Shown: positions 8,280 to 31,199 of the stretch, piece by piece
Position numbering within the stretch: position 1 is the first letter of the stretch
Layout of the letters: every line of letters starts with the position of its first letter
NCBI GenBank assembly: GCA_013821195.1
Contig: JACDHG010000003.1
Coordinates: 1 to 37,825 of the forward strand
From: Propionibacteriales bacterium
Lineage (GTDB): Bacteria > Actinomycetota > Actinomycetes > Propionibacteriales > Nocardioidaceae
DNA length: 37,825 nt
Direction of reading: 5' to 3'
Notes under the pieces: generated by a model
The model's input: the letters and a program-made list of their open reading frames with translations, nothing else
Database searches by the model: none
Told to the model about the DNA's origin: nothing
Program-made: the position numbers and the translations under genes

Positions 8280-8335
8280 CCGACTTGTCAGGACGCCGGC
8301 ACCCTCGAGGTGTCCACTACGGGCTGACACGTCGG
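8280..8335. repeat. Inverted-repeat element at a convergent gene end (copy A)
   Basis: Arms CCGACTTGTCAG (8280-8291) and CTGACACGTCGG (8324-8335) pair at 11 of 12 positions around a 32-nt centre. The centre itself can fold (GGCACC with GGTGTCC around CTCGA). It lies between the end of the PH-domain gene and the last codons of the minus-strand DUF1116 gene. The arm sequence recurs exactly at 20837-20848 at the hyuA/hyuB junction. It may act as a bidirectional terminator or belong to a palindromic repeat family. Confidence 0.6.
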
Positions 8336-9711
8336 GCGAGCGCCTCCGCTGCGCGCTCGAAGCACCGCATCGGCGGCGACACCAGTCCGGCGCCCACCTG
8401 ACCGACTCCGGCGACGCGCCCAGCCATGCCGGTGTTGATCTGGGGCAGCTGACCGGTACGCAGCACCGAGGTCACGTCGATGCCCGTCGGCGTACCCCGG
8501 AAGTCCATGATCGGCAGCGCCCAGCGCGGGTTCTCGCCCACACAGAGGTCGTACATCCGGCGAGTGGTGGCAAGCGCGTCAGACACCGAGCCACCCACGA
8601 ACCGCACGATGGCCGGAGCCGTTGCCATCGCGAAGCCCCCGATCCCTGCCGTCTCCGTGATCGCGGAGTCGCCGATGTCGGGGTTGGCGTCGGCCGGTCC
8701 GTAGTTTCCGAGGTAGAGGCCGTCGGCCACCTGCGCCGGACCGGTGAACCACTCGTCCGCGAGACCGGACACCTGGATGCCGAAGTCGGTGCCGTTGCGG
8801 GCCATGGTGGTGACGACGGTGGACCCCGGGATGCCGCTCGCGGCCACCGTCATCAGCTTGCAGGCAGGCATCACGAGATTGAGAAAGAAGTGGTCGTTTC
8901 CCGACACGAACGCCACGACATCGGCTATGTCGCCGGTCGGAAGGCCGGACTGGATCAGCGCCGGCAGCCACTCCTTGAGCAGCATCAACGTGCCGGCGCG
9001 GTTGCGGTTGTGGCCCTCGTCGCCCATCTGGATCATCTGGGCGATGATCGCCACGATGTCGATCGGACCCGTCACGCGGGTCGCCGTCTGCAGGGCCGGG
9101 CCGAGGACGTCGCCCATCCACCTCAGACGTGTGATCACCTCGGGGGAGTAGGCGCCGTACCTCAGCACCTTGCCGAGCCCCTCGTTGAGTGAGCAACAGG
9201 CGGTGTGGTCGGTCGTCTCGTCGTGCAGCTCGAACATCCACATCGAGGACGACACGACCCCGGCCATCGGGCCCACCGCCCCACGGTGGTGAGCCGGCTC
9301 GAACGTGAACTTCCCAGCGTCGAGCCGCGCCTCCGCCTGCTCGGCCGTGTCGGCGAGCCCCTCGTAGACCACGGCGCCGATGAGCGCGCCGCGCAGCGGG
9401 CCGGGCATCCGGTCCCACGTGAGAGGTGGTCCGGCGTGCAGGAAGTGGCCCGGCTCCAGGTCAAGGGCCGCATGGGCAGGACGTACGTCGACGAGCGCCG
9501 CGCCGGCCGACGTCATGGCGGTGAGGGCCTTGGCGTTGGCGCCGACCCTGCGGCGGTCGAGCATGACAGCTGTGAGGGCGTCCTCGGTGCCGGCGACCGG
9601 CGGTGTCCAGGCGACGTCGACGGTTGCGACGCCCTGGCTGTTGAGGGCGTCGGCGAACATCTGTGCGCCGGCCGTCACGACGGTCAGGTCTGCTGCTGGT
9701 CCCGGGGTCAC
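8317..9711 (-). CDS. DUF1116 (YlbE/AllG-like) subunit of putative carbamoyltransferase
   Basis: A 464-residue protein of the DUF1116 family, the E. coli YlbE group. Recognisable stretches are ANAKALTAMTSAGA, GHFLHAGPPLTWDRM, NRNRAGTLMLLKEWLPAL and GNDHFFLNLVMPACK. YlbE is encoded beside FdrA and YlbF in the E. coli allantoin cluster. From memory, the three have been reported to form the oxamate carbamoyltransferase (AllFGH). Third gene of the minus-strand operon; its GTG overlaps the fdrA-like stop (GTGA). The family call is secure; the substrate here is open and is discussed in the findings. Confidence 0.85.
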   Translation of the reverse strand: MTPGPAADLTVVTAGAQMFADALNSQGVATVDVAWTPPVAGTEDALTAVMLDRRRVGANAKALTAMTSAGAALVDVRPAHAALDLEPGHFLHAGPPLTWDRMPGPLRGALIGAVVYEGLADTAEQAEARLDAGKFTFEPAHHRGAVGPMAGVVSSSMWMFELHDETTDHTACCSLNEGLGKVLRYGAYSPEVITRLRWMGDVLGPALQTATRVTGPIDIVAIIAQMIQMGDEGHNRNRAGTLMLLKEWLPALIQSGLPTGDIADVVAFVSGNDHFFLNLVMPACKLMTVAASGIPGSTVVTTMARNGTDFGIQVSGLADEWFTGPAQVADGLYLGNYGPADANPDIGDSAITETAGIGGFAMATAPAIVRFVGGSVSDALATTRRMYDLCVGENPRWALPIMDFRGTPTGIDVTSVLRTGQLPQINTGMAGRVAGVGQVGAGLVSPPMRCFERAAEALARRVSP

Positions 9712-11171
9712 GCGCGGCTCCTCCTCACCAAGGCGATCGCTTCGCGGGTCGCGGCGGCGTTCGACGCGTGCACGAGAGCCCCTGCCTCGGCAAGCGCGGT
9801 GGCTTGCGCTTCCAGCCCCTGCGGATCGTCTCGGGTGCCGATCAGCGCCACCACCACCGGGGTGTCGTACTGCCTCACCAAGGCGGCGATGTCACTCGCC
9901 GGGTCGCGATGGGCGGCCACCCCCAGCACGATGTCGAGCAGCACGACAGCACACGTGGGGTCGGCAAGCTCCTGCTCGAGCCGCTCCAGCCTCAGGGACG
10001 GGTCGATCATCGGGTGCGGCCGTCCGACCGTCATCGCGTCGTCACCGAAGTCGAGGAACGTGTGGCCGGTGGCGGTGAGCGAGGCGTCGAGCCGTCTCCC
10101 ACCGTCGAGGGGGATGTTGGAGGCGACGACCCCGAGCTCTGACGTCGCGATCAGCATGGCCTCGTCGCACAGGGTCCCGCCGACGAAGAGTCCCCGCAGA
10201 AATCCCTGGCGCGACGTCGGCACGGGACCACCCCACCGGCGCGGAGCCACCCAGGACAGTCCGACAGCAGCCGCCACTCGTTCGGCTGTCGCGGTGAGAT
10301 CTGGCTGACCGGCACCGAGATAACCGAGGACCGTGCGAGTGGTGAGCCGCTCAGCGTGCGCGGTGACCAGCTCGGCCACCTCCGCGGCGGGAGGTTTGGA
10401 GACGACAACGATGGTGGAGACGGTGTCGTCTGCGTCCAGCCTGTCCAGCGCGGTGAGCGTCGACCGCGCGCGTACGGCGGAGGACATGTCGCGTCCGCCG
10501 ACGCCGAGGCAGTGTGTGACGCCGATACCGACGCCGTCGAGCAGCGCCATCAGGTGCTGGGCGCCGGTGCCGGATGCTGCGACGATGCCGACAGGGCCGG
10601 GCCGTACAACATTGGCGAAGCCGAGCCCGACGCCCGCCACGACCGCGGTGCCGCAGTCGGGACCCATCAGCAGCAGGCCGGTGTCAGCAGCGATCTCCTT
10701 GAGGGCGACCTCGTGCTCGACGCTGACGTTGTCGCTGAAGATCATCGTGTCCAGGCCCGCAGCCAGGGCGTCGGCGGCATCGATCGCGGCCACCCGGCCC
10801 GGCGTGCTGATCAGGGCGAGCTGCGCTGGGGCCCGCCTGGCCGCTGCCAGGATCGTCGGTGGCGGCACCTCGCGCGAGCCGTCGCTGAGCCCAGCTCCGG
10901 AAGGACCCGCCGCGAGGGCGCTGTCGAGTGCCGTGTGGGCGCGGGCGATCGCATCTTCGTCGGCTGCCTCTATGCCGACGATCAGGTCGGACGGAGTGAC
11001 CCCGTCCGGCTGCTCGAACCCCATCGAGACCAGCAGGTCGACGTTGAGCTCGGTCGCCATCGCCACCAGTGCCGAGCTGACCCCGTCGAGCGCGCGCAGG
11101 TCGCGACTCACCTGCATCAACCCGACCGAGTCGCGGTACATGCCGCTACGGACCTCGACCTGACGTGTCAT
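9708..11171 (-). CDS. fdrA: FdrA-like (AllF-like) subunit of putative carbamoyltransferase
   Basis: A 487-residue protein of the FdrA family, which is related to succinyl-CoA ligase. The N-terminal part reads YRDSVGLMQVSRDLRAL. The Rossmann-like centre has MIFSDNVSVEHEVALKEIA, LLMGPDCGTAVV and the glycine-rich GPVGIVAASGTGAQHLMALLD, with SLC-like DNA/phosphohistidine-loop architecture. FdrA was first named as a suppressor gene affecting protein export; more recent work, from memory, places it in oxamate carbamoyltransferase. It overlaps the DUF2877 stop (ATGA) and the DUF1116 start (GTGA), which fits a stoichiometric complex. Confidence 0.85.
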   Translation of the reverse strand: MTRQVEVRSGMYRDSVGLMQVSRDLRALDGVSSALVAMATELNVDLLVSMGFEQPDGVTPSDLIVGIEAADEDAIARAHTALDSALAAGPSGAGLSDGSREVPPPTILAAARRAPAQLALISTPGRVAAIDAADALAAGLDTMIFSDNVSVEHEVALKEIAADTGLLLMGPDCGTAVVAGVGLGFANVVRPGPVGIVAASGTGAQHLMALLDGVGIGVTHCLGVGGRDMSSAVRARSTLTALDRLDADDTVSTIVVVSKPPAAEVAELVTAHAERLTTRTVLGYLGAGQPDLTATAERVAAAVGLSWVAPRRWGGPVPTSRQGFLRGLFVGGTLCDEAMLIATSELGVVASNIPLDGGRRLDASLTATGHTFLDFGDDAMTVGRPHPMIDPSLRLERLEQELADPTCAVVLLDIVLGVAAHRDPASDIAALVRQYDTPVVVALIGTRDDPQGLEAQATALAEAGALVHASNAAATREAIALVRRSRA

Positions 11172-11869
11172 GTCGTCGCCTTCCTCGTCGCGGCGCCCAG
11201 AACTCGGTCGATGCCCTCCGACAGGCCCCGACCGGAGCTGTGTCCGATCCGGTGCAGGGCCGCCGCTGCCTGGGGCAGCCCGACACCTGTGACCCGCGCG
11301 GCCAATACAGCGGCGACCTCGTCAAGACACCACCCTGCCGCGGTTTGTCGCAGCAGACCAGCGGACGCGGCTGTGGTGAGATCCTCGAGTGGGGCCGCCT
11401 CGATCTCGCGCGACACGGTGTCGGCGACGGGATGACGAGCTGCGTGCAGGGTCGCCAGGGTGCCGCAGAGGACGTCGTCGGCGTACGGCGTCAGACCCTC
11501 ACCGTGCCCGAGTGACTGTCGCCACCGCCGGGCGAACCCGGCAGCCACGTCGTCACGCACGCTGCCGCCCAGGGATGGGTGGCGGGGACGCGCAGGCCGC
11601 CACCAGCGCATGACCGGGAGCCGTCGACCTTCCAAGCTCAGGGTCCCACCCCCGACGACGAGCGACGCCGTGCGAGGCGGCTGCGTGACGGAGATGGCAT
11701 GAGGGAGCCGCAGTCCTGCCTGGAACGTGACGCAGGCGACCACGTGACCCCGAGGGTCGACCAACTGCCAGACGGAGCGTGTCGCGTGGGCGACCCCGAG
11801 CTCCTGTCGCGGACCGTCGACCAGCGGCGCCAACGCCACACTGACGATGGCGCCCGTGCGCTGATCCAC
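11168..11869 (-). CDS. DUF2877 (YlbF/AllH-like) subunit of putative carbamoyltransferase
   Basis: First gene of the minus-strand operon. The protein resembles DUF2877/YlbF members: LGHGEGLTPYADDVLCGTL is the diagnostic GxGxGLTPxxDD-type motif, with RHPSLGG and a C-terminal GHSSGRGLSEGIDRVLGA. The frame stays open to 12043, but GTG 11869 is the best start: it has GGAGG about 7 nt upstream and gives 233 residues. The longer version would cover the divergent regulatory region with its inverted repeat. Confidence 0.82.
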   Translation of the reverse strand: MDQRTGAIVSVALAPLVDGPRQELGVAHATRSVWQLVDPRGHVVACVTFQAGLRLPHAISVTQPPRTASLVVGGGTLSLEGRRLPVMRWWRPARPRHPSLGGSVRDDVAAGFARRWRQSLGHGEGLTPYADDVLCGTLATLHAARHPVADTVSREIEAAPLEDLTTAASAGLLRQTAAGWCLDEVAAVLAARVTGVGLPQAAAALHRIGHSSGRGLSEGIDRVLGAATRKATT

Positions 11870-12107
11870 GTTCACTCCTCCGCCCCCGACCAGCCCCGTC
11901 GCGTGTGGCGTCGACGCTAGCCGCCGAGACACCGTCGACGTGCCGCAGGGCCCTGATCTCCGATTCGTCCGCCGGGCCGCGCCGAGTTCCTGCACCGTCC
12001 AGCCGGACGAATCGGAAGGCGCGTCGTGCCGTCGACACGGCATACCGTTCCGGCATCCTGTTCACACGTGACAGAGCGGTCACGCCGCATCGACAGTGGG
12101 AGTCGCC
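11870..12107. promoter_or_regulatory. Divergent regulatory region between DUF2877 operon and uracil-type permease
   Basis: 238 nt without a supported gene between two oppositely directed catabolic transcription units. It holds a 13-bp perfect inverted repeat, TCCGATTCGTCCG (11959-11971) and CGGACGAATCGGA (12004-12016), with a 32-nt spacer, and several GTCGAC-centred small dyads, including TGCCG-N6-CGGCA near 12028-12043. No confident -35/-10 pair was identified. Both units could be controlled together from here. Confidence 0.55.
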
Positions 12108-13586
12108 ATGGCTATCGGTTGGAAGGTCGTTCACGACGGCAAGACCCCACCTCCAGGGGAAGCCGTCGCTCCTGACGAGCGGCTGTCCTGGGGCCGAACA
12201 GTCGGCCTCGGGGCACAGCACGTGGTCGCGATGTTCGGTGCGACGTTCGTCTTCCCCATCATCATGGGTCTGAGCCCACAGCTGGCGATCATGATGAGCG
12301 GCATCGCAACGATCGCGTTCCTGCTCATCGTGCAGGGCAAGGTGCCGAGCTATCTGGGCACGAGCGCTGCCTTCGTCGGCGGAGCCAGCGCGATCTACGC
12401 CCAACAGGGCGGCCCCGCCGACGTCACCGGCGCGATCCTTGTCGCCGGCGTCGTGCTCGGCCTCGTCGGAGTTCTGATCCACTTCCTCGGGACCCGCGTG
12501 CTCCACGCCGTGCTGCCGCCGGTCGTCACCGGTGCTGTCGTCATGTTGATCGGGTTCAACCTTGCGCCCGTAGTCGCGAACATCTACTGGCCCCAGGACC
12601 AGTGGGTCGCCCTCATCACGATGACGTTCGTGATCGTGGTCGCCGTGGGCGTGCGGGGCTTCTTCGGTCGCGTCGCGATCTTCCTCGGCCTCGTCTTCGG
12701 CTACCTGCTCTCGTGGTCCTTCGACCTCATCTTCGGTCAGATCACCTCCCTGGACGCCGCGACCAACGAGATCACCACCCATGACCGGGTCAACTGGGAC
12801 CAGGTCAAGTCAGCTGACTGGATCGGCTTCCCGACGCACACTGCCGATGGCCTGGTGGGCAACCAGACACTCGTCGGCAACCTCGACGCCGTCGGTTGGC
12901 ACGCTCCCAGCTTCTCGATCACGTTCGTGCTCCTGGTCCTGCCCGCGGTGATCGCCCTGGTCGCCGAGAACACCGGCCACGTCAAGGCAGTCGCCGCGAT
13001 GACAAGGCGAGACCTCGACCCGGTGATGGGACGTGCGATCGCCGCAGACGGTGTCGGCACGGTGCTTGCGAGCTCCGTCGGTGGCTCACCGACGACCACG
13101 TACGCAGAGAACATCGGCGTGATGGCAGCCACCCGGGTCTACTCGACGGCGGCCTACTATGTCGCGGCGGTCGTCGCCGTGCTCTTCGGCCTCTCACCGA
13201 AGTTCGGTGCACTGGTGTCCGCGACTCCCGGTGGCGTGCTGGGCGGGATCACGGTGATCCTCTACGGCATGATCGGGCTGCTGGGTGCGAAGATCTGGAT
13301 AGAGAACCGCGTGAACTTCGCCAGCCCTGTCAACCTGGTGCCTGTCGCGGCAGGCATCATTCTCGCGATCGGCAACACGTCGTTGGCGATCACCGATGAC
13401 TTCGTGCTTTCGGGGATCGCGTTGGGAACCATTGTCACGCTGGTCGGCTACCACCTGGCGAAGGCTGTTGCTCCCGCTAGTCTCAAGGACGACGGGACGT
13501 TGATCGCGGTCGGCCACGAGGGTGCACACCGCGACGACCCCGACGAGACGGGCAGCCACCGCAGGGAACGCCCTGACCTCCAGTGA
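12108..13586 (+). CDS. RutG/UraA-like nucleobase (uracil-type) permease, NCS2 family
   Basis: A 492-residue inner-membrane proton symporter with 12-14 hydrophobic segments. Sequence is close in style to the E. coli pyrimidine permease RutG: GAQHVVAMFGATFVFPIIMG, VPSYLGTSAAFVGG, VLPPVVTGAVVMLIGFNLAP, VAENTGHVKAVAAMT and TTTYAENIGVMAATRVYS. The Glu-Asn-Ile-Gly signature is that of the uracil branch rather than the Gln/Asn-rich purine NAT branch. ATG 12108 has GGGAG 5 nt upstream; a GTG at 12096 adds four residues. As the first plus-strand gene of the cluster it suggests the pathway substrate is a pyrimidine. Confidence 0.88.
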   Translation: MAIGWKVVHDGKTPPPGEAVAPDERLSWGRTVGLGAQHVVAMFGATFVFPIIMGLSPQLAIMMSGIATIAFLLIVQGKVPSYLGTSAAFVGGASAIYAQQGGPADVTGAILVAGVVLGLVGVLIHFLGTRVLHAVLPPVVTGAVVMLIGFNLAPVVANIYWPQDQWVALITMTFVIVVAVGVRGFFGRVAIFLGLVFGYLLSWSFDLIFGQITSLDAATNEITTHDRVNWDQVKSADWIGFPTHTADGLVGNQTLVGNLDAVGWHAPSFSITFVLLVLPAVIALVAENTGHVKAVAAMTRRDLDPVMGRAIAADGVGTVLASSVGGSPTTTYAENIGVMAATRVYSTAAYYVAAVVAVLFGLSPKFGALVSATPGGVLGGITVILYGMIGLLGAKIWIENRVNFASPVNLVPVAAGIILAIGNTSLAITDDFVLSGIALGTIVTLVGYHLAKAVAPASLKDDGTLIAVGHEGAHRDDPDETGSHRRERPDLQ

Positions 13587-13607: not shown

Positions 13608-14483
13608 GTGAAACCGGCACCGTTCGCCTATCACCGGCCGAGCACCGTCGCCGAGGCTGCGCAGCTGCTGGCTGCGACGCAGGGCAAGATCCTCGCAGGT
13701 GGCCAGAGCCTCATCCCGATCATGTCGATGCGGCTGGCGTCGCCGGCTGCTCTGGTCGACCTCAACCACGTGCCGGGGCTCGCCGCCATCGACGTCACCA
13801 GCACCGCGGTCCACATCGGCGCACTGACCCGGCATGCCGCCCTGGAGGCGAACGACGCGGCATACCTTGCCAACCCACTGCTGCGTCGAGCTCTCCGACA
13901 CGTCGCGCATGCCACCATCCGCAACCGAGGCACCACCGTGGGGAGCATCGTGCACGCCGACCCGGCGGCCGAGATGCCGGCGGTGTTGCGGCTGCTGGGT
14001 GGCATCGTCGAAGCCGTCAGCTCGGAGCGAGGGCACCGCAGCATCGACAGCGCGGACTTCTTCGTCGGACCGTTGGAGTCGGCGCTCCAGCCGGACGAGG
14101 TCGCCGTCGCTGCAACGTTTCCGCACCCGCCCGGCGGGTCGGGGTCGTCGTGGGCCGAGATTTCGCGTCGGCACGGCGATTACGGTCTGGTCGGGGTGGG
14201 GTCGCTCGTCGTACTCGACGAGGGACGTCGCATCACGAGCGCGTCGGTGTGCCTCATCAGCGTCGGAGGGACCCCGGTGCTCGTCGACGTCACCGATGCC
14301 AGCAGCGGTACGACGTATGACGCAGTCGACTGGACGGCAGCGCTCGAGCTCGTCGACGCAGCCATCGACCCCGAGTCCGACATCCACGCCACCGCCGCCT
14401 ATCGACGGCAGCTGGCTCGGGTGCTCACGGGGCGAGCACTGGCGCAGGCGACAGCCGACGCGATCGCCAGGGTCGCCGCGTGA
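13608..14483 (+). CDS. Molybdenum hydroxylase FAD-binding subunit (CoxM/XdhB-like)
   Basis: A 291-residue medium subunit of a xanthine dehydrogenase-superfamily enzyme. It starts KPAPFAYHRPSTVAEA and carries the two FAD pyrophosphate-binding segments AGGQSLIP (residues 31-38) and TIRNRGTTVGSIVHADPAAEMPAVL. It passes electrons from the 2Fe-2S subunit to the final acceptor. GTG start 21 nt after the permease stop; the stop overlaps the next gene's GTG (GTGA). The order FAD, FeS, Mo is the CODH-like (CoxMSL) order, but the Mo subunit is not a CO dehydrogenase. Confidence 0.92.
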   Translation: MKPAPFAYHRPSTVAEAAQLLAATQGKILAGGQSLIPIMSMRLASPAALVDLNHVPGLAAIDVTSTAVHIGALTRHAALEANDAAYLANPLLRRALRHVAHATIRNRGTTVGSIVHADPAAEMPAVLRLLGGIVEAVSSERGHRSIDSADFFVGPLESALQPDEVAVAATFPHPPGGSGSSWAEISRRHGDYGLVGVGSLVVLDEGRRITSASVCLISVGGTPVLVDVTDASSGTTYDAVDWTAALELVDAAIDPESDIHATAAYRRQLARVLTGRALAQATADAIARVAA

Positions 14484-14998
14484 CGACGGCTTCCGATCCA
14501 GCAAGCGCGGAGGCCCTCCACGACGTCACGCTGACCGTCAACGGGGTTTTCCAGCAGCTGCGTGTTCCTGCGCGCAGGCTGCTCTCCGACGCACTTCGCC
14601 ACGACCTGCGGTTGACCGGCACGCATGTCGGTTGCGAGCACGGGGTGTGCGGTGCCTGCACCGTGCTCATCGAGGGCCGCCCGACCCGCTCCTGCCTCGT
14701 CTTCGCCGTGTCTGCCGACGGCGCCTCGATCACGACCGTCGAGGGCTGCCTGGAGCCCGACGGCACCCTCGGGGACGTCCAGCAGGCGTTCCAGGACTGT
14801 CACGCGCTGCAGTGCGGCTTCTGCACACCGGGCTTCATCACCACCATCACGGCGTACCTCGAGGATCATCCGAACCCGACCGAGGACGAGGCACGGGAGG
14901 CCATCGGGGGCAACCTGTGCCGGTGCACCGGCTACCAGAACATCGTGGCCGCCGTGGTGCGCGCCGCCGAGATCCGGCGTGAGCGCACCGCGACATGA
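14480..14998 (+). CDS. Molybdenum hydroxylase 2Fe-2S subunit (CoxS/XdhA-like)
   Basis: A 172-residue small subunit with two 2Fe-2S clusters. The plant-ferredoxin-type cluster ligands are C53, C58, C61 and C73 (GCEHGVCGACTVLIEG then SC). The second, helical cluster uses CGFCTPG and the C-terminal CRCTGY motif. It bridges the molybdenum centre and FAD. GTG start overlaps the FAD subunit stop, and its stop overlaps the Mo subunit start (ATGA), so the three subunits are probably made in equal amounts. Confidence 0.95.
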   Translation: MTTASDPASAEALHDVTLTVNGVFQQLRVPARRLLSDALRHDLRLTGTHVGCEHGVCGACTVLIEGRPTRSCLVFAVSADGASITTVEGCLEPDGTLGDVQQAFQDCHALQCGFCTPGFITTITAYLEDHPNPTEDEAREAIGGNLCRCTGYQNIVAAVVRAAEIRRERTAT

Positions 14999-17373
14999 CG
15001 ACGAAGATGTTCGGCCAGCGGGTGCCGAGAGTCGAGGACCCCCGGCTGCTGAGCGGGCAGGGGCGCTACCTCGACGACCTCGGCCACGACGCGCTCGAGG
15101 TCGCATTCGTCCGTAGCCCGCACGCGCATGCCCGCATCGTCGACGTCGACGTGTCGGCTGCCCTCGACGTCGAGGGGCTGGTGGCGATCTACACGTACGA
15201 CGACCTGGACGGCCGCACCACGGAGCCGCTGCCGCTGCTGATCCCGCATCCGGCGCTGACCCATGGCCGGACGCCGTACGCACTGGCGAAGGACGAGGTC
15301 AATCATGTGGGCGAGGCGATCGCCATGGTGGTCGCCAGCGACCGTTACGTCGCCGAGGACGTCGTCGGGCTGATCCAGGTGGAGTACGAGCTCCTGCCGG
15401 CGGTCGTGGGCATCGAGAGATCACGCGACGGCGGTGACCTGGTGCACGCCGACGTGCCCGGCAACGTCGCCGCCACCATGGTCCAGGAGGTGGGTGATGC
15501 CGCGACCATGATCGCGGCCGCCGGGCACCGCGCCACGTTGTCGCTGTCGATCGAGCGCAGCGCGTCCATGCCGATGGAGGGCAAGGGGGTGCTGGCCCGG
15601 TGGGACCCTGACGACGAGTCGCTGTTGATGCACACGTCCACGCAGACGTCGACGTCGGTGCGCCAGGCGGTCGCCGCCAAGCTGTCGCTTCCCGTGGACC
15701 GGGTCGAGGTCGTCACCCCCGACGTCGGAGGCGGCTTCGGTGTCAAGATCGTGCACCCGTGGCCGGAGGAGATCCTGGTGCCGTGGGCCGCGCTGCGGCT
15801 CGGGCAGCCGGTGAAGTGGGTCGAGGACCGGCGCGAGCACTTCGTCTCCTCGGCACACGAACGCGGTCAGCTGCACGAGGTCGAGTTCGGCTACGACGAC
15901 GACGGCCACCTCCGCGGCTTGTCAGTCCGTTTCTGGCACGACAACGGCGCCTACACGCCGTACGGCCTCATCGTCCCGATCATCACCTCCACCCAGCTGC
16001 TCGGCCCCTACAAGCCTGGGGCCTATCGCGTCGAGTTCCAGAGCCTCTACACCAACACGGTCATCGTGACGCCGTACCGCGGCGCCGGTCGCCCCCAGGG
16101 CTGCTTCGTGATGGAGCGGGTCATGGACGCCATCGCCGCCGACCTCGGGCTCGACCGCACGGTCGTCCGCGAGCGCAACTTCATCCAGCCGGAGGAGATG
16201 CCTTTCGACCACGGCCTGATCTTCCAGGACGGTCGCCCCCTCATCTACGACTCAGGGGACTTCCCGGCGTCGTTGGCCAAGCTCAAGGCGCTCGTCGGCT
16301 GGGACGACTTCGAGAGCTATCGCTCCGCGGCCCGTGCTGAGGGACGCCAGGTCGGCATCGGCGTTGCGTGCTACGTCGAGGGCACCGGGGTCGGCCCCTA
16401 CGAGGGGGGACACCTGCGCATCGAGACCGACGGCTCGGTCGTCGTGTCGACAGGGCTGACCACGCAGGGACAGGGCCACCAGACGATGCTCGCCCAGATC
16501 GTCGCGGACGAGCTCGGCGTCAGCATGGATCGGATCCGGGTCACCACGGGTGACACCCGCCGGTTCAAGTACGCCGTCGGGACCTTCGCGTCGCGCACCG
16601 CCGTGATGTCTGGAAGCGCGGTGGCGCTGACCGCTCGGAAGGTCCGCGCCAAGGCGTTGCGGATCGCCGCCAACGCCCTCGAGGCCTCGGTCGACGACCT
16701 CGAGATCGTCGACGGCCACGTGCAGGTGAAGGGCTCACCGGGGTCGCAGATCGACCTGGGAGCGGTCGCCGTGCTGTCGAACCCGCTGCGCTACGCCTTC
16801 GATGCAGGCGCCACTCGCGCGACCCAGTTCGCGGCGCCGGCAGACCCCAGCGTGCCCCCTGTGCCCGAGAACGACCAGCCGGGACTCGAGGGCACCGACT
16901 ACTACTCGCCGCTGCGCTCGACCTTCGCCAACGGCATGCACGCCGTCGTGGTGGAGACCGACCCCGAGACAGCCGAGATCAAGATCCTGCGCTACTGCGT
17001 CGTACACGACTGCGGAACGGTGATCAACCCGATGATCGTCGAGGGGCAGGTGCATGGGGGGGTTGCCCAAGGCGTAGGCGGCGCGCTCTACGAGCGGATG
17101 GAGTACGACGCGGCGGGTCAGCTGCTCAACGCGTCGTACATGGACTTCCTGATGCCCTACGCGAGCGAGGTCCCACACATCGAGATCGACCATCTGGAGA
17201 CGCCGTCACCGCTGAACCCGCTCGGAGTGAAAGGGGCCGGCGAGGCAGGTGTCATCCCCGGCTCCGCCGCGATCGCCGCAGCCATCGAGGATGCCGAGGG
17301 GTTCGCGATCGCGGCAATGCCCATCTCCCCGAGCGAGCTCTTCGAGCTGCGCCGCCGTCACGCCGGACGGTGA
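14995..17373 (+). CDS. Molybdenum hydroxylase catalytic (molybdopterin) subunit
   Basis: A 792-residue large subunit that would hydroxylate a heterocycle or aldehyde at the Mo centre. Visible are VPRVEDPRLLSGQGRYLDD at the N terminus, the cofactor motif GGGFGVK (245-251), YRGAGRPQG (361-369) and the catalytic glutamate in KGAGEAG (E750). The AYRCSFR Cu-binding loop of CO dehydrogenase is replaced by PYRGAGRPQ, so CO oxidation is excluded. Xanthine, nicotinate, aldehyde and uracil/thymine dehydrogenases are candidates. The RutG-like permease and distant barbiturase-family gene favour a pyrimidine. No XdhC- or CoxDEF-like maturation gene is present in the window. Confidence 0.93.
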   Translation: MTTKMFGQRVPRVEDPRLLSGQGRYLDDLGHDALEVAFVRSPHAHARIVDVDVSAALDVEGLVAIYTYDDLDGRTTEPLPLLIPHPALTHGRTPYALAKDEVNHVGEAIAMVVASDRYVAEDVVGLIQVEYELLPAVVGIERSRDGGDLVHADVPGNVAATMVQEVGDAATMIAAAGHRATLSLSIERSASMPMEGKGVLARWDPDDESLLMHTSTQTSTSVRQAVAAKLSLPVDRVEVVTPDVGGGFGVKIVHPWPEEILVPWAALRLGQPVKWVEDRREHFVSSAHERGQLHEVEFGYDDDGHLRGLSVRFWHDNGAYTPYGLIVPIITSTQLLGPYKPGAYRVEFQSLYTNTVIVTPYRGAGRPQGCFVMERVMDAIAADLGLDRTVVRERNFIQPEEMPFDHGLIFQDGRPLIYDSGDFPASLAKLKALVGWDDFESYRSAARAEGRQVGIGVACYVEGTGVGPYEGGHLRIETDGSVVVSTGLTTQGQGHQTMLAQIVADELGVSMDRIRVTTGDTRRFKYAVGTFASRTAVMSGSAVALTARKVRAKALRIAANALEASVDDLEIVDGHVQVKGSPGSQIDLGAVAVLSNPLRYAFDAGATRATQFAAPADPSVPPVPENDQPGLEGTDYYSPLRSTFANGMHAVVVETDPETAEIKILRYCVVHDCGTVINPMIVEGQVHGGVAQGVGGALYERMEYDAAGQLLNASYMDFLMPYASEVPHIEIDHLETPSPLNPLGVKGAGEAGVIPGSAAIAAAIEDAEGFAIAAMPISPSELFELRRRHAGR

Positions 17374-18016: not shown

Positions 18017-18086
18017 GTGATGCGTCACCATGGGCTCATCGGGTCGCCTGTGGCGGCCACCTCGGCACTCACGCCACGGAGGGCAG

Positions 18087-18752
18087 ATGAAGGTCACCGG
18101 CTCGGCCACGTTGCATGCCTCACGCGACAAGGTCTGGGCGGCGCTCAACGACCCCGCGGTGCTGGTGCGGACCATCCCTGGGTGCCAACGGCTGGAGGCC
18201 ATCGGCGAGGACGCCTACCGGATGACGCTCACCGCCGGAGTCGCCTCGATCAAGGGTGTCTACACGGGTGAGGTGCGGCTGACCGAGCAGCACCCTCTCG
18301 ACACGTTCGTGCTGAAGGCTGCCGGCGCCGGAGGCCCGGGGACGGTGGGGGCCGATGTGCTCGTCACGCTCGCCGAGTCCGGCGACACGACGACGCTGAC
18401 GTATGACGCGGACGCCATCGTCGGAGGCATGATCGGTGGCGTCGGCCAGCGGATGCTGACCGGCGTTGCCAAGAAGACGGCGGTTGAGTTCTTCAATGCG
18501 GTCGACGACCTCCTCACCGGGAAGTCGCCAGCGGCGACGCCTGCCGCCCCCGGCGCCGCGGTCGCCGACCCGACGGCCGTGCCTGCCGCCACGCCGGGGG
18601 CGACCGCCGGAGTCTACGAGGCGCCCGGCGCCCCGGGGGCGCTGTCCGGTCGGAGCTGCGGCTTCGTTCAGGGTGCGCTGGTCGGTGCCGCCGCCGCACT
18701 CTTCGGCGCGGTGGTCGGCGGTTGGCTGAGCGGCCGCCGGCGCCAGTCGTGA
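18087..18752 (+). CDS. CoxG-like SRPBCC protein with C-terminal membrane anchor
   Basis: A 221-residue protein. The N-terminal ~145 residues are a CoxG/SRPBCC hydrophobic-pocket domain: MKVTGSATLHASRDKVWAAL, DPAVLVRTIPGCQRLE, SIKGVYTGEVRL and VDDLLTG. Then comes a proline/alanine-rich linker (about 148-185) and one transmembrane helix with glycine spacing (GALVGAAAALFGAVVGGWLSG) ending in basic residues. CoxG proteins tie Mo hydroxylases to the membrane and are implicated in electron delivery to quinone. Start ATG 18087 follows GGAGGG (18078-18083); the open frame upstream is not supported. The stop overlaps hyuA (GTGA). Confidence 0.85.
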   Translation: MKVTGSATLHASRDKVWAALNDPAVLVRTIPGCQRLEAIGEDAYRMTLTAGVASIKGVYTGEVRLTEQHPLDTFVLKAAGAGGPGTVGADVLVTLAESGDTTTLTYDADAIVGGMIGGVGQRMLTGVAKKTAVEFFNAVDDLLTGKSPAATPAAPGAAVADPTAVPAATPGATAGVYEAPGAPGALSGRSCGFVQGALVGAAAALFGAVVGGWLSGRRRQS

Positions 18753-20866
18753 GCGGTCCGTCGCCGGCGCCTCGACGCGTCAGGATCGGTGTCGACACGG
18801 GCGGGACCTTCACCGACGTCGTGGCCGTCGACGAGGACAGCGGTGAGATTGCCACCACGAAGACCCCGTCGACACCCGCCGACCCGGCCGTCGGCTTCAT
18901 GGCGGGGATCGACAAGGTCCTCGGGCAGCTCGGCCTCGGCGGCGACAGCGTCACAGCCGTCTCGCACGGCACGACGGTGGCGACGAACAGGCTGCTCGAG
19001 GGGAAGGTGGACGGCCTCGGCTTCATCACCACCGAGGGCTACGAGCACATCCTCGAGATCGCCAGGCAGTCTGTCCCGGACGGCTACGGCAACTCCTACT
19101 TCTGGGTCAAGCCGCCGCGGATCGTGCCGGCCGACCGCGTCAGGACCGTCCGCGGCAGGCTGGCCGTGGACGGCTCGCAGATCCGACCGTTCGACGAGGA
19201 GTCCGCGCGCGCGGCCGCCCAGTTCTTCAAGGACGCCGGCATCGGCACGATCGGCGTCTGTTTCCTCCACTCGTACGCCAACCCCGAGCATGAGCTCGCC
19301 ATGCGCGACGTCCTCGTGAAGATCCATCCCGATGCCGTCGTCTCGATCTCCTCTGAGGTGTTGCGCGAGTACCGCGAGTACGAGCGATCGGTGACGACGC
19401 TCGTCGACGCAGCCGTCAAGCCGAGCATCCGGAGCTACGTCGCAGGCGTCACCGACCGGCTCGCGGAGTACTCGGCGGACGAGTCGGGTCAGCCGCGTCG
19501 GGTGCCGTTCTACGTGATGAAGTCCAACGGCGGCGTCCTCAGCGGGCGGGAGGTCGTCAACCAGCCGATCACCACCGTGCTCTCCGGTCCTGCGGCGGGT
19601 GCGCTTGGTGCGGCCGTCGTGGCACAGCGGGCAGGGTTCGACCAGGTGGTGACGTGCGACGGCGGAGGTACGTCCACCGACGTGTGTGTCGTCGTCGACG
19701 GGACCCCCACGCTCACGACCGAGGGGCACGTGGGCGAGTACCCGAGCAAGATCGCGATGCTCGACGTGGTCACGGTCGGCGCGGGTGGAGGGTCGATTGC
19801 CTGGGTCAGCCCCGAGGGCAGCCTGAAGGTTGGGCCCCGGTCGGCGGGAGCGGACCCCGGCCCGATGTGTTACGGCAAGGGCGGCGCGGCCCCGACCGTC
19901 ACCGATGCGCATGTCCTCCTCGGTCGCCTGCCCCCGCACCTGCTCGGCGGTGAGGTGCCACTCGACGTGGATCTGGCCCGCGGTGGGGTCGACGCGCTGG
20001 CGGGCCGGTTGGGGCTCGGTCCGGAGCATTGTGCTCGCGGCATCGTGGAGATATCGGCGTGGAACCAGGCGAACGCGCTGCGCCAGGTCACCGTGAAGAG
20101 GGGGCTCGATGTCCGCGACTTCCACCTCGTCACGTTCGGTGGGTCAGGCTCGCTGCTGGCCTGCCGGCTTGTCGACATCGTGGGCCTGCGCGGCGTGGTG
20201 GTGCCCCTCAGCCCTGGCAACGTCTCGGCATACGGGCTGCTGACCGTCGACGTCCGCATCGACTATGTCCAGACGGCGGTGTCGAAGGACGCCGAGCTCA
20301 CCCTCGTAGACCTCATCGCCGTCCTGGGCGACCTGCTCTCGAAGGCTCAGGACGACCTGGCGGCAGAGGGGTTCCTTCGGAGCCAGCGGCGGTTCACGCG
20401 GATGGCCGACCTGCGCTACTTCGGTCAGGCCTTCGAGGTGCGCGTCGCCATCCCCGGCGGGAAGGTCACCCGAGACCTGCTCGACCGGGTCGTCGAGGCG
20501 TTCCACACCGAGCACGAGCGACTCTACGGCTACCACTTCCGCGACGACCCGAGGCAGCAGGTGGAGTGGGTCAACCTTCGGGTGACCGGCATCGGCCCCA
20601 TTCGCAAGCCAGATCCCCCGGAGCTTGCGCCCGGACGAGGCGCTGCGGCGGCCGTCACCGGCGAGCGCGCCGTCTACTTCGACGACTGGGTGGACACGGT
20701 GATCTACGACCGCGCGGGGCTGGGGGCGGGCGACACCGTCACCGGGCCCGCCGTGGTCGAGGAGTTCTCCTCGACGGTGCCGATCCACCCAGGCTTCGAG
20801 GCGAGCGTCGACCGCTTCGGCAACCTCGTCATCGCCCCGACTTGTCAGCAGCTCAGGTCGCTATGA
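18749..20866 (+). CDS. hyuA: HyuA-type subunit of hydantoinase/oxoprolinase family
   Basis: A 705-residue ATP-binding subunit of the family that includes 5-oxoprolinase, N-methylhydantoin amidohydrolase and acetone carboxylase. Actin-like phosphate motifs are clear: GVDTGGTFTDVVAVD near the N terminus, SHGTTVATNRLLEG, and VTCDGGGTSTDVCVVVDG with GAGGGSIAWV. The enzyme would phosphorylate a carbonyl or amide oxygen with ATP to drive ring opening, amide hydrolysis or carboxylation; the exact reaction cannot be read from sequence. GTG 18749 overlaps the coxG-like stop. Its last codons form one arm of the large hairpin at the hyuB junction. Confidence 0.9.
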   Translation: MSGPSPAPRRVRIGVDTGGTFTDVVAVDEDSGEIATTKTPSTPADPAVGFMAGIDKVLGQLGLGGDSVTAVSHGTTVATNRLLEGKVDGLGFITTEGYEHILEIARQSVPDGYGNSYFWVKPPRIVPADRVRTVRGRLAVDGSQIRPFDEESARAAAQFFKDAGIGTIGVCFLHSYANPEHELAMRDVLVKIHPDAVVSISSEVLREYREYERSVTTLVDAAVKPSIRSYVAGVTDRLAEYSADESGQPRRVPFYVMKSNGGVLSGREVVNQPITTVLSGPAAGALGAAVVAQRAGFDQVVTCDGGGTSTDVCVVVDGTPTLTTEGHVGEYPSKIAMLDVVTVGAGGGSIAWVSPEGSLKVGPRSAGADPGPMCYGKGGAAPTVTDAHVLLGRLPPHLLGGEVPLDVDLARGGVDALAGRLGLGPEHCARGIVEISAWNQANALRQVTVKRGLDVRDFHLVTFGGSGSLLACRLVDIVGLRGVVVPLSPGNVSAYGLLTVDVRIDYVQTAVSKDAELTLVDLIAVLGDLLSKAQDDLAAEGFLRSQRRFTRMADLRYFGQAFEVRVAIPGGKVTRDLLDRVVEAFHTEHERLYGYHFRDDPRQQVEWVNLRVTGIGPIRKPDPPELAPGRGAAAAVTGERAVYFDDWVDTVIYDRAGLGAGDTVTGPAVVEEFSSTVPIHPGFEASVDRFGNLVIAPTCQQLRSL

Positions 20867-20892
20867 CGACCTCAGGTTCTGACAAGTCGGGG
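20835..20892 (+). promoter_or_regulatory. 58-nt hairpin holding the hyuA stop and hyuB start in its loop (copy B)
   Basis: Perfect 14-bp arms CCCCGACTTGTCAG (20835-20848) and CTGACAAGTCGGGG (20879-20892). After a 3x3 internal loop, CTCAGGTCG (20852-20860) pairs with CGACCTCAG (20867-20875) with one mismatch. The six-base loop CTATGA (20861-20866) contains the overlapping stop and start. In mRNA this would bury the hyuB start until a ribosome finishing hyuA opens it, a plausible device for strict translational coupling. The outer arm recurs at 8280-8291, so it may also be an inserted palindromic element. Confidence 0.8.
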
Positions 20893-22758
20893 ACAGCGGT
20901 GGACCCGGTGCTCGTCGAGATCGTCGAGGGCTACCTTGCCTCTGTCGAGGAGGAGGTGGAGACGGCTATCGGGCGCACCGCGCGGTCGCCGATGATCCGC
21001 GACGCCCACGACTACCGCGCCGGGATCCACGACCGCCACCTGCGCAAGCTGACCGGACGGTCGTATTCCGCGCTTGTGCACCCGGTCGTGCGGGACTACC
21101 CGATCCAGACGATGCGGCCGGGCGACGTCTTCTTCCACAACGACGTCTACCTGTCAGAAGGCGGCATCGGCCACTTGCCCGACCTGTGCGTCACCGCGCC
21201 GGTCTTCTGTGGGCGGGAGGTCGTCGCGTTCGTGCAGGCGTTCGGGCACCATGACGATATCGGGGGATCGGTGCCCGGGTCGATGCCGTCGAACGCCACC
21301 TCCGTGTTCGAGGAAGGCTTGATGGTGCCGCCGATCAAGCTGTGGGACGAGGGGGTCCCCTGCGAGCAGGCGCTGAAGATCATGACCCGGAACTCGCGGA
21401 TGCCGGAGTCGCTGGCGGCGGATCTCGACGCCGAGTGCTCCGCCTGCCTGATGGGCGCGCGCCGGATGGCGGAGCTGTTCGCCCGCTACGGCCAGGACCG
21501 GGTCGAGGCCTGTTTCGACGCGATCCTCGCCAAGACGACTGAGACGTTCCGGCGCGAGATCCTCGCCAAGATCCCCGAGGGCACCTTCGTCTGGGAGGAC
21601 TATGCCGAGCACGACGGCGTCGAGGAGCCCCGGCTGCACACCCAGCGCATCACCTTGACGAAGGTGGCCGACGACGGTGGCCGGATCATCATCGACTTCG
21701 ACGGGACGGCGCCGCAGGCGCGAGGCCCGATCAACCACTGCGGTGACTACGCCGACGGCAACTTCTTGAAGAAGTGGCTCGCGCCCATCCTGCGCAACCT
21801 CGCCGACTCCCCGGAGCGGATGGCCGAGATCGACGTCAACGAGGGGGTTGTGCCGCTGATCGAGATGCGGTTTCCCCCGCCGGGGACCCTGCTCACCCCG
21901 GTCTTCCCGGCTCCCACGAACGCGCGAACCTTCGTCATCCTGCGGCTGCTCGGGGTGCTGGCGGGCGTGCTCGCGAAGGCCGTCGACGGTCGGATGCCTG
22001 CCGACCAGGAGACGATCCGCTACACCGGGGTGTACGGCGACGACCTCGAGGGCCAGCCGTACCTGATGCGCGAGGTGCTCGGCGGCGGGTCCGGCGGGCG
22101 CTGCTACGCCGACGGCGAGGACACCATCCACGTCGTACCCGACTCACGGAACCTGCCGACGGAGTTCAGCGAAGGTCGGTTCCCGTTCGTGGTCGAGCGT
22201 CTCGGGCTCGCCATCGACTCTGGAGGCGCGGGGCTGCATCGTGGTGGGTGCGGCTACGAGAAGCACATCCGGATGCTGACGGACGCCCACTTCATGTCGA
22301 TCGCCGACCGTTCGATCCTCGCCTGCTGGGGTGTCAAGGGCGGTAAGGCAGGCAAGTCGTTCGACGTCACCGTCGACCTCGGCGGACCCGACGAGCGCGT
22401 GGTCGGCGCGCTGGCCGACGCGGAGCCGGTGGCCGCGGGACAGGTCATCCGGATCCGCACCACCGGCGGGGGAGGCTGGGGTGACCCGCTCGAGCGTGCG
22501 TATGACGATGTGGCCCGTGACGTCTCATGGGGCAAGGTGTCGGTCGCCGGGGCGCGGGACGACTACGGCGTGATACTCGAGCGCCACGGTCCCGACGTCA
22601 TCGTCGACGCGAAAGCCTCGTCCCGCCTTCGCGACGAGCAACGGGCGGCTCGAACCGAGCGGGTGGCCGTGCAGGGTGACCCGTTCTTCGACCGCGGGCC
22701 CGGCTACCGTCGGCTCTCGGGGGGCACCACTCACGCGGACGTCGACCTGCTGACCTGA
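20863..22758 (+). CDS. hyuB: HyuB-type subunit of hydantoinase/oxoprolinase family
   Basis: A 631-residue partner of HyuA. Family stretches include VDPVLVEIVEGYLASVEEE, AIGRTARSPMIRDAHDYRAGI, MRPGDVFFHNDVYLSEGGIGHLPD, AFGHHDDIGGSVPGSMP, IDFDGTAPQARGPINHCGDY and the C-terminal RIRTTGGGGWGDPLERA. In characterised relatives this subunit carries metal ligands and much of the active site. ATG 20863 overlaps the hyuA stop by four bases (ATGA) inside a hairpin loop; the N-terminal residues MTTSGSDKSGT are encoded by its 3' arm. Last gene of the plus-strand catabolic run. Confidence 0.9.
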   Translation: MTTSGSDKSGTAVDPVLVEIVEGYLASVEEEVETAIGRTARSPMIRDAHDYRAGIHDRHLRKLTGRSYSALVHPVVRDYPIQTMRPGDVFFHNDVYLSEGGIGHLPDLCVTAPVFCGREVVAFVQAFGHHDDIGGSVPGSMPSNATSVFEEGLMVPPIKLWDEGVPCEQALKIMTRNSRMPESLAADLDAECSACLMGARRMAELFARYGQDRVEACFDAILAKTTETFRREILAKIPEGTFVWEDYAEHDGVEEPRLHTQRITLTKVADDGGRIIIDFDGTAPQARGPINHCGDYADGNFLKKWLAPILRNLADSPERMAEIDVNEGVVPLIEMRFPPPGTLLTPVFPAPTNARTFVILRLLGVLAGVLAKAVDGRMPADQETIRYTGVYGDDLEGQPYLMREVLGGGSGGRCYADGEDTIHVVPDSRNLPTEFSEGRFPFVVERLGLAIDSGGAGLHRGGCGYEKHIRMLTDAHFMSIADRSILACWGVKGGKAGKSFDVTVDLGGPDERVVGALADAEPVAAGQVIRIRTTGGGGWGDPLERAYDDVARDVSWGKVSVAGARDDYGVILERHGPDVIVDAKASSRLRDEQRAARTERVAVQGDPFFDRGPGYRRLSGGTTHADVDLLT

Positions 22759-28664: not shown

Positions 28665-30241
28665 CCGGCCCGAGCAGGAGCGGCGACATCTCGGTCATCG
28701 TCACCGACCAGAGAATCGCACTGGTAGGACCCTTCGACGATGACCTGACATACGACGTGCTCATCAACGGCCAGCACATCTGGTCCGTCCTGCCCACGCG
28801 GGACCTGACGTCCCGTCAGGGCGGTGCTGGGACCAGGTGGCCGAGGGCCCTGCGCGCCCACCTGGTGGGTCACGGCCGCGTGGTGGTCCGCGAGCACGTC
28901 AGCGGACGCGAGGTGGCGGCGGCCGAGCACTGGTTCGGTGGCGTGCAGGACGGCGAGGTCTCGGTTGTCGGTCCGGGCGGGGATCCGCTCTTGCTCGACA
29001 AGTGGCGACGGCTGATCCGGCCGCTCGCCTCGGAGGACGACGAGAGCCTGGGTCGCCTCATGGACCGGGTCGTGGCGCTGCTCGACACGATGAACAACAC
29101 GTGTGGGGTGCCGTCGTTCATCTGTTTCGGGACGCTGCTCGGGGCAGTGCGTGACGGGGCACCGATCGGCCATGACAACGACATCGACGTGGGGTACCTC
29201 AGCGCGTTCGAACATCCGGTCGACGTCGCCCGCGAGGCGTTCCAGGTCGCACGGGTCCTCCATGAGAACGGCTGGCCGGCGCGCCGGGGTTCGGCCGTCC
29301 GCATCAACACCCGGCTCGACCTCGGCGGCGGTCAGGCGCGACGGGCCGACGTCTTCACCTGTGCATGGGTCGAGGGTGTCCTCTACATGCCGTCCGACGT
29401 CGGCGTGAAGGTGCCCCGGGAGACGATGCTGCCGTTGGGGACCGTGACGATGCTCGGCCGCGAGGTGCCTGTGCCCGCCGACCCGGAGTCGCTGCTCACG
29501 TTGACGTACGGACCCGGATGGCGGGTCCCCGACCCCTCCTTCGAGTATGCGAGGTCCCTTGGACTGCGGCGCAGGCTCGAGGGTTGGTACGGCGGACTCA
29601 GCCGCGGCCGCAAGTACTGGGACACCTTCGAGAAGAAGTCCCCCGACCTCGTCCCCCGAAAACCGAGTGCTTTCGCCCGGTGGGTGGCGAGGGAGCAGCC
29701 GTCACATCGACTGCTCGTCGACATCGGCACCGGCACTGGACGGGACGCGCTCTGGATGGCGCGCCGTGGACGGCCCGTGCTGGGTCTGGACTACGCGGTG
29801 ACCGCCATCGCCGGTGCTCGGCGACGCAACCGTAGCAAGGGCCTCGACGCCAGGTTCGAGGTGTTCAACATCGTCGACACGCGTGCGGCGCTCATCCTCG
29901 GCGCGCGCCTGAGTCGCCAGGCCGAGCCGCCGGATCTCTATGCGCGCTTCTTCCTTCACTCGATCACCGAGGTCGGCCGCGCCAACCTCTGGCGAGTGGC
30001 GCAGATGTCGCTACGCCGCGGTGGCCTGTTCTTCGCCGAGTTCCGCACGGATCGCGATGCCGCCCTGTCCCACGTCCTCCCCGGCAGGGGACGATCGTTC
30101 CTTGACCCTGACCTGATCGTCTCGGAGATCGAGGCGTCAGGTGGCCGCATCGTCAGTCGCGTCGAGGGGCAAGGGCTCGCGGTGTTCGGTAGCGAGGATC
30201 CGCACGTCTGCCGGTTGGTGGCGGCGTGGAGCCGGCCATGA
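28661..30241 (+). CDS. LicD-like nucleotidyltransferase fused to a class I methyltransferase
   Basis: A 526-residue two-domain protein. Residues ~155-180 hold the LicD/nucleotidyltransferase signature FGTLLGAVRDGAPIGHDNDIDVGYL (the GTLLGAVR and DNDID halves are separated by a short loop), typical of enzymes that attach phospho-groups to cell-surface glycans. From ~350 there is a SAM-binding Rossmann fold (LLVDIGTGTGRDALWMARRG, then VLGLDYA). The N-terminal ~110 residues are uncharacterised. GTG 28661 overlaps the sulfotransferase stop; its stop overlaps carbamate kinase ATG 30238, an odd coupling of unrelated functions. Confidence 0.78.
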   Translation: MTGPSRSGDISVIVTDQRIALVGPFDDDLTYDVLINGQHIWSVLPTRDLTSRQGGAGTRWPRALRAHLVGHGRVVVREHVSGREVAAAEHWFGGVQDGEVSVVGPGGDPLLLDKWRRLIRPLASEDDESLGRLMDRVVALLDTMNNTCGVPSFICFGTLLGAVRDGAPIGHDNDIDVGYLSAFEHPVDVAREAFQVARVLHENGWPARRGSAVRINTRLDLGGGQARRADVFTCAWVEGVLYMPSDVGVKVPRETMLPLGTVTMLGREVPVPADPESLLTLTYGPGWRVPDPSFEYARSLGLRRRLEGWYGGLSRGRKYWDTFEKKSPDLVPRKPSAFARWVAREQPSHRLLVDIGTGTGRDALWMARRGRPVLGLDYAVTAIAGARRRNRSKGLDARFEVFNIVDTRAALILGARLSRQAEPPDLYARFFLHSITEVGRANLWRVAQMSLRRGGLFFAEFRTDRDAALSHVLPGRGRSFLDPDLIVSEIEASGGRIVSRVEGQGLAVFGSEDPHVCRLVAAWSRP

Positions 30242-31173
30242 CGGTGCTGGTCGCGCTGGGGGGCAACGCGATGACAGCCGCCGACGGCGGCGCGAGCCCC
30301 GAGGACCAGATCGCCGCCGCTGAGATCGCGATGGACGCGGTTGCGGACCTGGTGGCGGCTGGGGTCGACGTCGTGATCACGCACGGCAACGGGCCCCAGG
30401 TGGGCAACCTGCTGGTCAAGAACGAGCTCTCCGCGGGCGTCGTGCCCCCGGTGCCGCTCGACTGGTGCGGTGCTCAAACACAAGCCACCCTCGGTTTCGT
30501 CCTGATGGATGCGCTGGAGCCGGCCCTGGCCCGTCGCGGCGTACGACGTCCGACCGCCGCCGTCGTGACGCGGACCCGAGTCGACCAGGACGACCCGGGT
30601 TTCAGCAAGCCGTCAAAGCCGATCGGACGGTACCTGTCGCGCGACGAGGCGGCTGCGCTCATCGAGCACGGCCAACAGTTCGAGGACCGCGGCAGCAAGG
30701 GCTGGCGACGGGTCGTCGCCTCGCCAGAGCCACGCGAGATCCTCGATGCCGGAGTAGTCAGCACGCTCGTCGACGCGGGGTACGTCGTGGTGGCCAACGG
30801 CGGCGGAGGCATCCCCGTCGTCAGAGACCCTGACGGTCGCCTGCGCGGAGTCGAAGCCGTGATCGACAAGGACCTCGGCGCGGCCCTCCTTGCCGAGGTG
30901 ATCGGCGCCGAGCGGCTGGTCATCGCCACCGACGTGGACCATGCGATTCTCGGCTACGGCACCGCCGCTGAGGCGCCGATCGCAGAGGTTCGCGTCACCG
31001 ACCTGCGGGGCTTTGCCGCGCAGGGTCACTTCGCGAGCGGCTCGATGGGGCCGAAGGTCGATGCGGTCTGCCGGTTCGTCGAGCAGTCGGGCAGCATCGG
31101 CGTCATCACCAGTCTGAGCAACATCGTGGCCGGGGTCAGGGGCGAGTCCGGCACCGTCGTCGTACCAGGTTGA
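30238..31173 (+). CDS. arcC: Carbamate kinase
   Basis: Transfers phosphate from carbamoyl phosphate to ADP, giving ATP and carbamate (which breaks down to ammonia and CO2). The 311-residue length is normal for the family. Motifs: [46 protein letters not shown] and [21 protein letters not shown] 30238 has GGAG at 30228-30231; an in-frame ATG at 30226 is less likely. No arginine deiminase or ornithine carbamoyltransferase gene is nearby, so its carbamoyl phosphate probably comes from a catabolic carbamoyltransferase such as the FdrA/DUF1116/DUF2877 set. The stop is 26 nt before the ring-opening amidohydrolase. Confidence 0.94.
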
Positions 31174-31199
31174 GCCACAGTCAGCCACGAGAGGATCCC

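Follow-up and report, generated by a model that had tools for sequence, protein, structure and literature searches.

A barbiturase-linked AllFGH-type transcarbamylase as a candidate ureidomalonate-cleaving enzyme of oxidative uracil degradation in Actinomycetota

Descriptions of the oxidative uracil pathway come from a few bacteria, and the final step known so far yields malonate and urea. To our knowledge, two of the pathway's activities, uracil dehydrogenase and ureidomalonase, have no assigned gene. Here, we analyze a 37,825-nucleotide stretch of a Propionibacteriales genome (hereafter the window; contig JACDHG010000003.1 of assembly GCA_013821195.1, our contig C244) that carries an operon for the three subunits of an AllFGH-type transcarbamylase together with genes for a carbamate kinase and a barbiturase, the parent genome being 2.46 Mb in size and 78% complete. 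We propose that the transcarbamylase quite probably takes ureidomalonate, the barbiturase product, as its substrate within the oxidative uracil pathway, and we weigh this proposal against other substrates.

An AllG-AllF-AllH operon and a barbiturase gene

The genes allH, allF and allG lie in a row on the reverse strand, with 4-bp overlaps at both the allG/allF and the allF/allH junction, and form a translationally coupled operon. The original prediction described a trio of FdrA, DUF1116 and DUF2877 proteins at 8317–11869, and the Pfam matches, the FdrA model, the match of AllF to the E. coli structure 3dmy ("Protein fdrA") and the overlaps confirm it as a real AllG-AllF-AllH operon. In Pfam, the families matched by AllG and AllH are named for subunits of oxamate carbamoyltransferase, and a relative of AllG with a solved structure is 3clq. 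Although the open frame of allH extends to position 12043, alignment of its N-terminus with other AllH proteins favors the start near 11869 that had been chosen. The carbamate kinase and barbiturase-family genes named in the prediction are likewise present, adjoining each other at higher coordinates (Table 1).

The original prediction assigned the E. coli counterparts FdrA, YlbE and YlbF, which take part there in allantoin degradation, to oxamate carbamoyltransferase. Published work demonstrates transcarbamylase chemistry of E. coli AllFGH on oxalurate, which is one carbon shorter than ureidomalonate (PMC11326118). The window's trio shares with E. coli AllFGH and AllK the three subunits, the coupled operon and the carbamate kinase partner, and by analogy would be expected to perform the same reaction, converting an N-acylurea and phosphate to an amide and carbamoyl phosphate. 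In contrast to the E. coli enzyme (about 45% identity for AllG and 39% for AllF), it belongs to a different AllG clade, is tied to barbiturase rather than to AllD, the dehydrogenase that makes oxalurate, and would act on a substrate one CH2 longer.

The ring-opening enzyme, originally placed only in the barbiturase family, is by its sequence a true barbiturase. Among solved structures it matches barbiturase 5hwe best, at 694 bits, and cyanuric acid hydrolases at no more than 325 bits. Barbiturases carry Asn/His/Lys/Val/Ser-Ala where AtzD has Arg/Thr/Arg/Gly/Gly (AtzD positions 195, 321, 325, 345 and 346; PMC3758960), and all five barbiturase specificity residues are found in the window's protein (N204, H334, K338, V358 and S359). 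The signature N-H-K-V-(S/A/G) was present in 100 of 100 barbiturase loci read, with G in some more distant copies. Signature residues and structural relatives together rule out a cyanuric acid hydrolase (AtzD/TrzD). Because the NCBIfam CyanAcHdlAtzD model passes its cut-off on this protein (472, cut-off 360), automatic annotation can mislead here.

Table 1. Features of the window discussed in the text (positions in the 37,825-nucleotide stretch).
Feature	Position	Strand	Evidence
AllG (DUF1116) subunit, proposed ureidomalonate carbamoyltransferase	8317..9711	-	PF06545 311 bits, over cut-off; barbiturase-linked AllG clade
AllF (FdrA) subunit	9708..11171	-	NCBIfam FdrA model NF004760 383 bits, under 433 cut-off; 3dmy 230 bits
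AllH (DUF2877) subunit	11168..~11869	-	PF11392 61 bits, cut-off 25
NCS2 nucleobase permease, likely uracil uptake, divergent from trio	12096..13586	+	PF00860; best NCBIfam match RutG 344 bits, below 759 cut-off
CoxM-type FAD subunit of molybdenum hydroxylase, candidate uracil dehydrogenase	13608..14483	+	Orthologue beside barbiturase clusters, including Rhodococcus
CoxS-type 2Fe-2S subunit	14480..14998	+	
CoxL-type molybdopterin subunit ("CO dehydrogenase group 5", NCBIfam)	14995..17373	+	NF040766 1501 bits; recurs in barbiturase clusters
CoxG-like accessory protein	18030..18752	+	PF06240
HyuA (hydantoinase/oxoprolinase A)	18722..20866	+	PF01968, PF05378, PF19278
HyuB (hydantoinase/oxoprolinase B)	20863..22758	+	PF02538 455 bits
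Carbamate kinase, directly upstream of bar	30226..31173	+	NF009007 302 bits, over cut-off; by bar in 73/80 loci
Barbiturase (barbiturate to ureidomalonate)	31170..32342, start probably 31200	+	PDB 5hwe 694 bits; Bar signature

Linkage of barbiturase and AllG across genomes

Barbiturase predicts a barbiturase-type AllG in every sampled genome outside Rhodococcus. We took the 80 closest barbiturase neighborhoods, every one actinobacterial, and found a carbamate kinase near the barbiturase gene (bar) in 73, usually as its immediate upstream neighbor; the kinase gene adjoins allH in other classes of Actinomycetota. Forty-nine of the genomes behind these loci were searchable, and all 44 of those outside Rhodococcus have an AllG at 306–331 bits. 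In a sample of 294 genomes drawn evenly from the order, with barbiturase counted at a minimum of 77% identity, AllG accompanies barbiturase in 74 of 74 genomes, and in 65 of them the two genes share a contig at a distance of 10.6–40.6 kb (median 23.9 kb). Thirteen genomes have AllG without this barbiturase, and those of their AllGs that the tree includes belong to other types. As 207 of the 294 have neither gene, AllFGH is not simply common in these bacteria. Within the window's own family, the genomes with barbiturase and those with AllG are the same 72, and both genes are missing from at least 20 others. Phylum-wide, in 396 evenly drawn genomes with barbiturase counted at a minimum of 64% identity, AllG was again found in all 23 barbiturase genomes, mostly 3–10 kb away.

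The linkage tightens elsewhere into short runs. In genome G651, bar, allH, allF and allG follow one another on one strand with few-base gaps or overlaps, and the CoxM gene of a molybdenum hydroxylase comes next; at loci L189, L190, L192 and L198, bar, carbamate kinase and allF make up a single-strand run, mostly with a nucleobase permease and allH as well. In genome G288, barbiturase and AllG are each present twice, at 19–27 kb from each other in both pairs.

All barbiturase-linked AllGs, including that of locus L147 from G288, form one clade (Shimodaira–Hasegawa-like approximate likelihood-ratio test support 97). The AllG of genome G641, which adjoins an AllD 55% identical to that of E. coli, groups with E. 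coli AllG and apart from this clade, and the window-type AllG falls outside the E. coli AllG clade. At five AllG positions (235, 238, 272, 274 and 341, numbered as in the window's protein), all 60 barbiturase-type sequences read N, R, N, H and D; in the eight sequences of the allantoin-like clade the residues there are mostly Q, I, T, Q and Q. R238, N235, H274 and D341 are class-specific differences from E. coli AllG; R238 is common only to the barbiturase type and a sister group (family f14 and genome G355), and the other positions recur partly in further clades.

Other AllG contexts came to light in the same searches. A protein of about 560 residues adjoins AllG in another clade of the order (L146:7880-9586, L140:4922-6643 and L144:4232-5902), and the L146 copy, when scanned, gave no Pfam or NCBIfam match. 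Loci L127, L137 and L138 present a further AllFG/carbamate kinase context that is common to distant genomes and in L127 includes a radical SAM protein and a large BTAD-type regulator. The cluster at L145:6762-14741 combines an AllG of the allantoin-like clade, a pair of carbamate kinase-like genes and a remote member of the AtzD/barbiturase family (33% identity), whose signature S-S-K-G-S is neither that of AtzD nor that of Bar.

Candidate substrates of the transcarbamylase

The genus Rhodococcus serves as a natural control. Its barbiturase was studied by Soong and co-workers in an oxidative pathway with a ureidomalonase that forms malonate and urea, as related in PMC3758960. Rhodococcus resembles the window in its barbiturase (82–84% identical to the window's) and in having an NCS2 permease and the three-subunit hydroxylase CoxMSL in the cluster; unlike the window, it lacks this AllG and a carbamate kinase near bar, and its pathway ends in malonate and urea with no ATP. 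Barbiturase occurs in 12 of 28 genomes of the genus and barbiturase-type AllG in none of the 28; four genomes carry a divergent AllG that scores near 247 bits. No carbamate kinase was found within the flanks of bar in the five Rhodococcus loci read first, four of which have a uracil phosphoribosyltransferase nearby. An amidase-signature (AS) protein, counted at a minimum of 78% identity, follows bar after 97–219 bp in 11 of the 12 barbiturase genomes (for example L012:11263-12756), the twelfth bar being a fragment at a contig end, and at that threshold it is found in none of the 16 genomes without barbiturase. This amidase is likely the best candidate for the ureidomalonase gene. Given the replacement pattern, bar with the amidase and bar with carbamate kinase and AllFGH look like two ways to do the same job, with AllFGH and carbamate kinase occupying the place that a hydrolytic ureidomalonase would hold in Rhodococcus.

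In the pathway we propose, the NCS2 permease would take up uracil, CoxMSL would convert it to barbiturate and barbiturase would open the ring to ureidomalonate. AllFGH would then cleave ureidomalonate with phosphate, in the direction of malonamate and carbamoyl phosphate, and carbamate kinase would use carbamoyl phosphate and ADP to make ATP, ammonia and CO2. In the many soil bacteria with this linkage, cleaving the opened ring in this way probably lets the cell recover ammonia and one ATP rather than release urea. In many relatives, an amidase would further split malonamate into malonate and ammonia, and a family III coenzyme A (CoA) transferase and a carboxyltransferase-like decarboxylase would carry malonate through malonyl-CoA to acetyl-CoA. 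We infer the substrate from the linkage and from the chemistry demonstrated for E. coli AllFGH on oxalurate. The ureidomalonate interpretation advanced originally thus finds genomic support in a true barbiturase, the linkage of AllG to it, the short runs in other genomes, the absence of AllD over cut-off and the Rhodococcus pattern.

It is quite improbable that the trio works on oxalurate as an ordinary oxamic transcarbamylase, and that barbiturase is nearby because the region serves nitrogen salvage in general. Such a reading could draw on the shared three-subunit family, whose E. coli member takes oxalurate and oxamate (PMC11326118), and on nitrifiers, in which allFGHK genes without upstream purine genes were assigned to oxalurate degradation (PMC12625717). 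Those comammox and ammonia-oxidizing archaeal genes resemble the window's in that AllFGH and carbamate kinase occur together without a complete allantoin pathway, but their partners are the biuret and triuret hydrolases biuH and trtA, cyanuric acid hydrolase genes are absent, and barbiturase goes unmentioned (PMC12625717). Against an oxalurate substrate, none of 50 barbiturase genomes has an AllD over cut-off, E. coli serving as the positive control, and AllD was not found in the window's own 78%-complete genome. An oxalurate-forming enzyme of another kind could still be present, but oxalurate is an unlikely substrate for the trio, whose AllG forms a separate clade and tracks barbiturase, not allantoinase. 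Allantoinase passes the cut-off in 25 of the 50 genomes, the window's included, but in 21 of the 45 genomes carrying barbiturase-type AllG none does, so AllG does not follow allantoinase. The original statement that allantoin genes are lacking holds for the window but not for the genome, which also lends the oxalurate reading its allantoinase and allantoicase: contig C170 has both, together with uricase, xanthine dehydrogenase subunits and malate synthase A. These genes constitute an aerobic allantoicase route that ends in glyoxylate and bypasses oxalurate. The concern raised with the prediction, that complete allantoin or oxalurate genes might lie elsewhere in the genome, therefore applies in part: allantoin genes exist, but they are of the allantoicase–glyoxylate type and are not adjacent to the trio.

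That AllFGH acts on another ureido acid, either the product of HyuAB or a thymine-derived 5-methyl compound, with ureidomalonate a minor substrate or none, is unlikely. Many of the 80 loci have HyuA or HyuB no more than 10 kb from bar, although L187 and L188, two deep clusters with barbiturase and AllFGH, gave no HyuAB match in the 16–19 kb read, and inside the AllG clade barbiturase is the partner that never fails. A sister AllG clade, which speaks against the ureidomalonate reading, occurs without barbiturase in family f14 and in G355, four genomes in all; three f14 genomes (G492, G472 and G374) have the run CoxL-HyuA-HyuB-AllF-AllG (L182, L183 and L184), no barbiturase was found in them, and the f14 AllGs carry nearly all the residues that separate the barbiturase type from the allantoin type. 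AllFGH may therefore also take a HyuAB product, and the f14 HyuAB may be either an ATP-using ring opener that feeds the same carbamoyltransferase or the maker of another ureide. Also weighing against the ureidomalonate reading are that HyuAB has no role in the scheme proposed here, that all evidence comes from Actinomycetota, that the co-occurrence counts are not independent trials because the sampled genomes are related, that the support is genomic and co-occurrence names no substrate, and that the window's 78%-complete genome has no close AS amidase copy (best 35%), the CN-hydrolase type not having been searched there.

It would be surprising if amidases in the clusters were themselves ureidomalonases giving malonate and urea, leaving AllFGH and carbamate kinase to serve an unrelated ureide. 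In many Nocardioides clusters, CoxG and HyuA do flank an AS-family amidase about 40% identical to the one behind bar in Rhodococcus. Such a division of labor, however, leaves both the constancy of carbamate kinase by bar and the exact matching of bar and AllG unexplained, and the Intrasporangiaceae clusters have an unrelated CN-hydrolase at the amidase place. Either amidase type fits cleavage of ureidomalonate by AllFGH, as splitting malonamate cuts the same acyl-amide bond.

Downstream steps and neighboring genes

Ureidomalonate phosphorolysis would probably be a new reaction, one that defines an energy-saving variant of oxidative uracil degradation widespread in Actinomycetota, with CoxMSL and the Rhodococcus amidase as gene candidates from the clusters. 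If so, most barbiturase-bearing Actinomycetota would use a transcarbamylase with a previously undescribed substrate to obtain free ammonia and one ATP from each uracil, two activities would acquire candidate genes (uracil dehydrogenase and ureidomalonase), and three misleading annotations would be corrected: cyanuric acid hydrolase, CO dehydrogenase and oxamate carbamoyltransferase. By titles and abstracts, none of the barbiturase papers in the literature searched concerns a carbamoyltransferase and none overlaps with those on oxamic transcarbamylase; other papers may exist.

The scheme needs a malonamate amidase, and the cluster amidases fit this putative activity; malonamidase E2 is no nearer a relative of the Nocardioides and Rhodococcus proteins than other AS amidases are. 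Of the 80 loci, 47 have a CoA transferase III in the vicinity of bar and 22 an AccA/AccD-like protein, and the natural reading is that these two would take malonate to malonyl-CoA and on to acetyl-CoA. The window, from an incomplete genome, has no CoA transferase beside bar.

CoxMSL is a candidate uracil/thymine dehydrogenase of the oxidative pathway. Annotation would make it an aerobic CO dehydrogenase, yet it recurs with barbiturase and nucleobase permease, and the xanthine dehydrogenase genes of the same genome sit elsewhere. In the gap separating the CoxL and CoxG genes, the opposite strand (17405-18004) encodes a 199-residue protein that has no Pfam match and no counterpart in the other clusters compared. 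Upstream of carbamate kinase lie two further genes (27465-30241), one without a family match and the other with LicD-like and methyltransferase-like parts, which are likewise missing from those clusters and are probably unrelated to the pathway.

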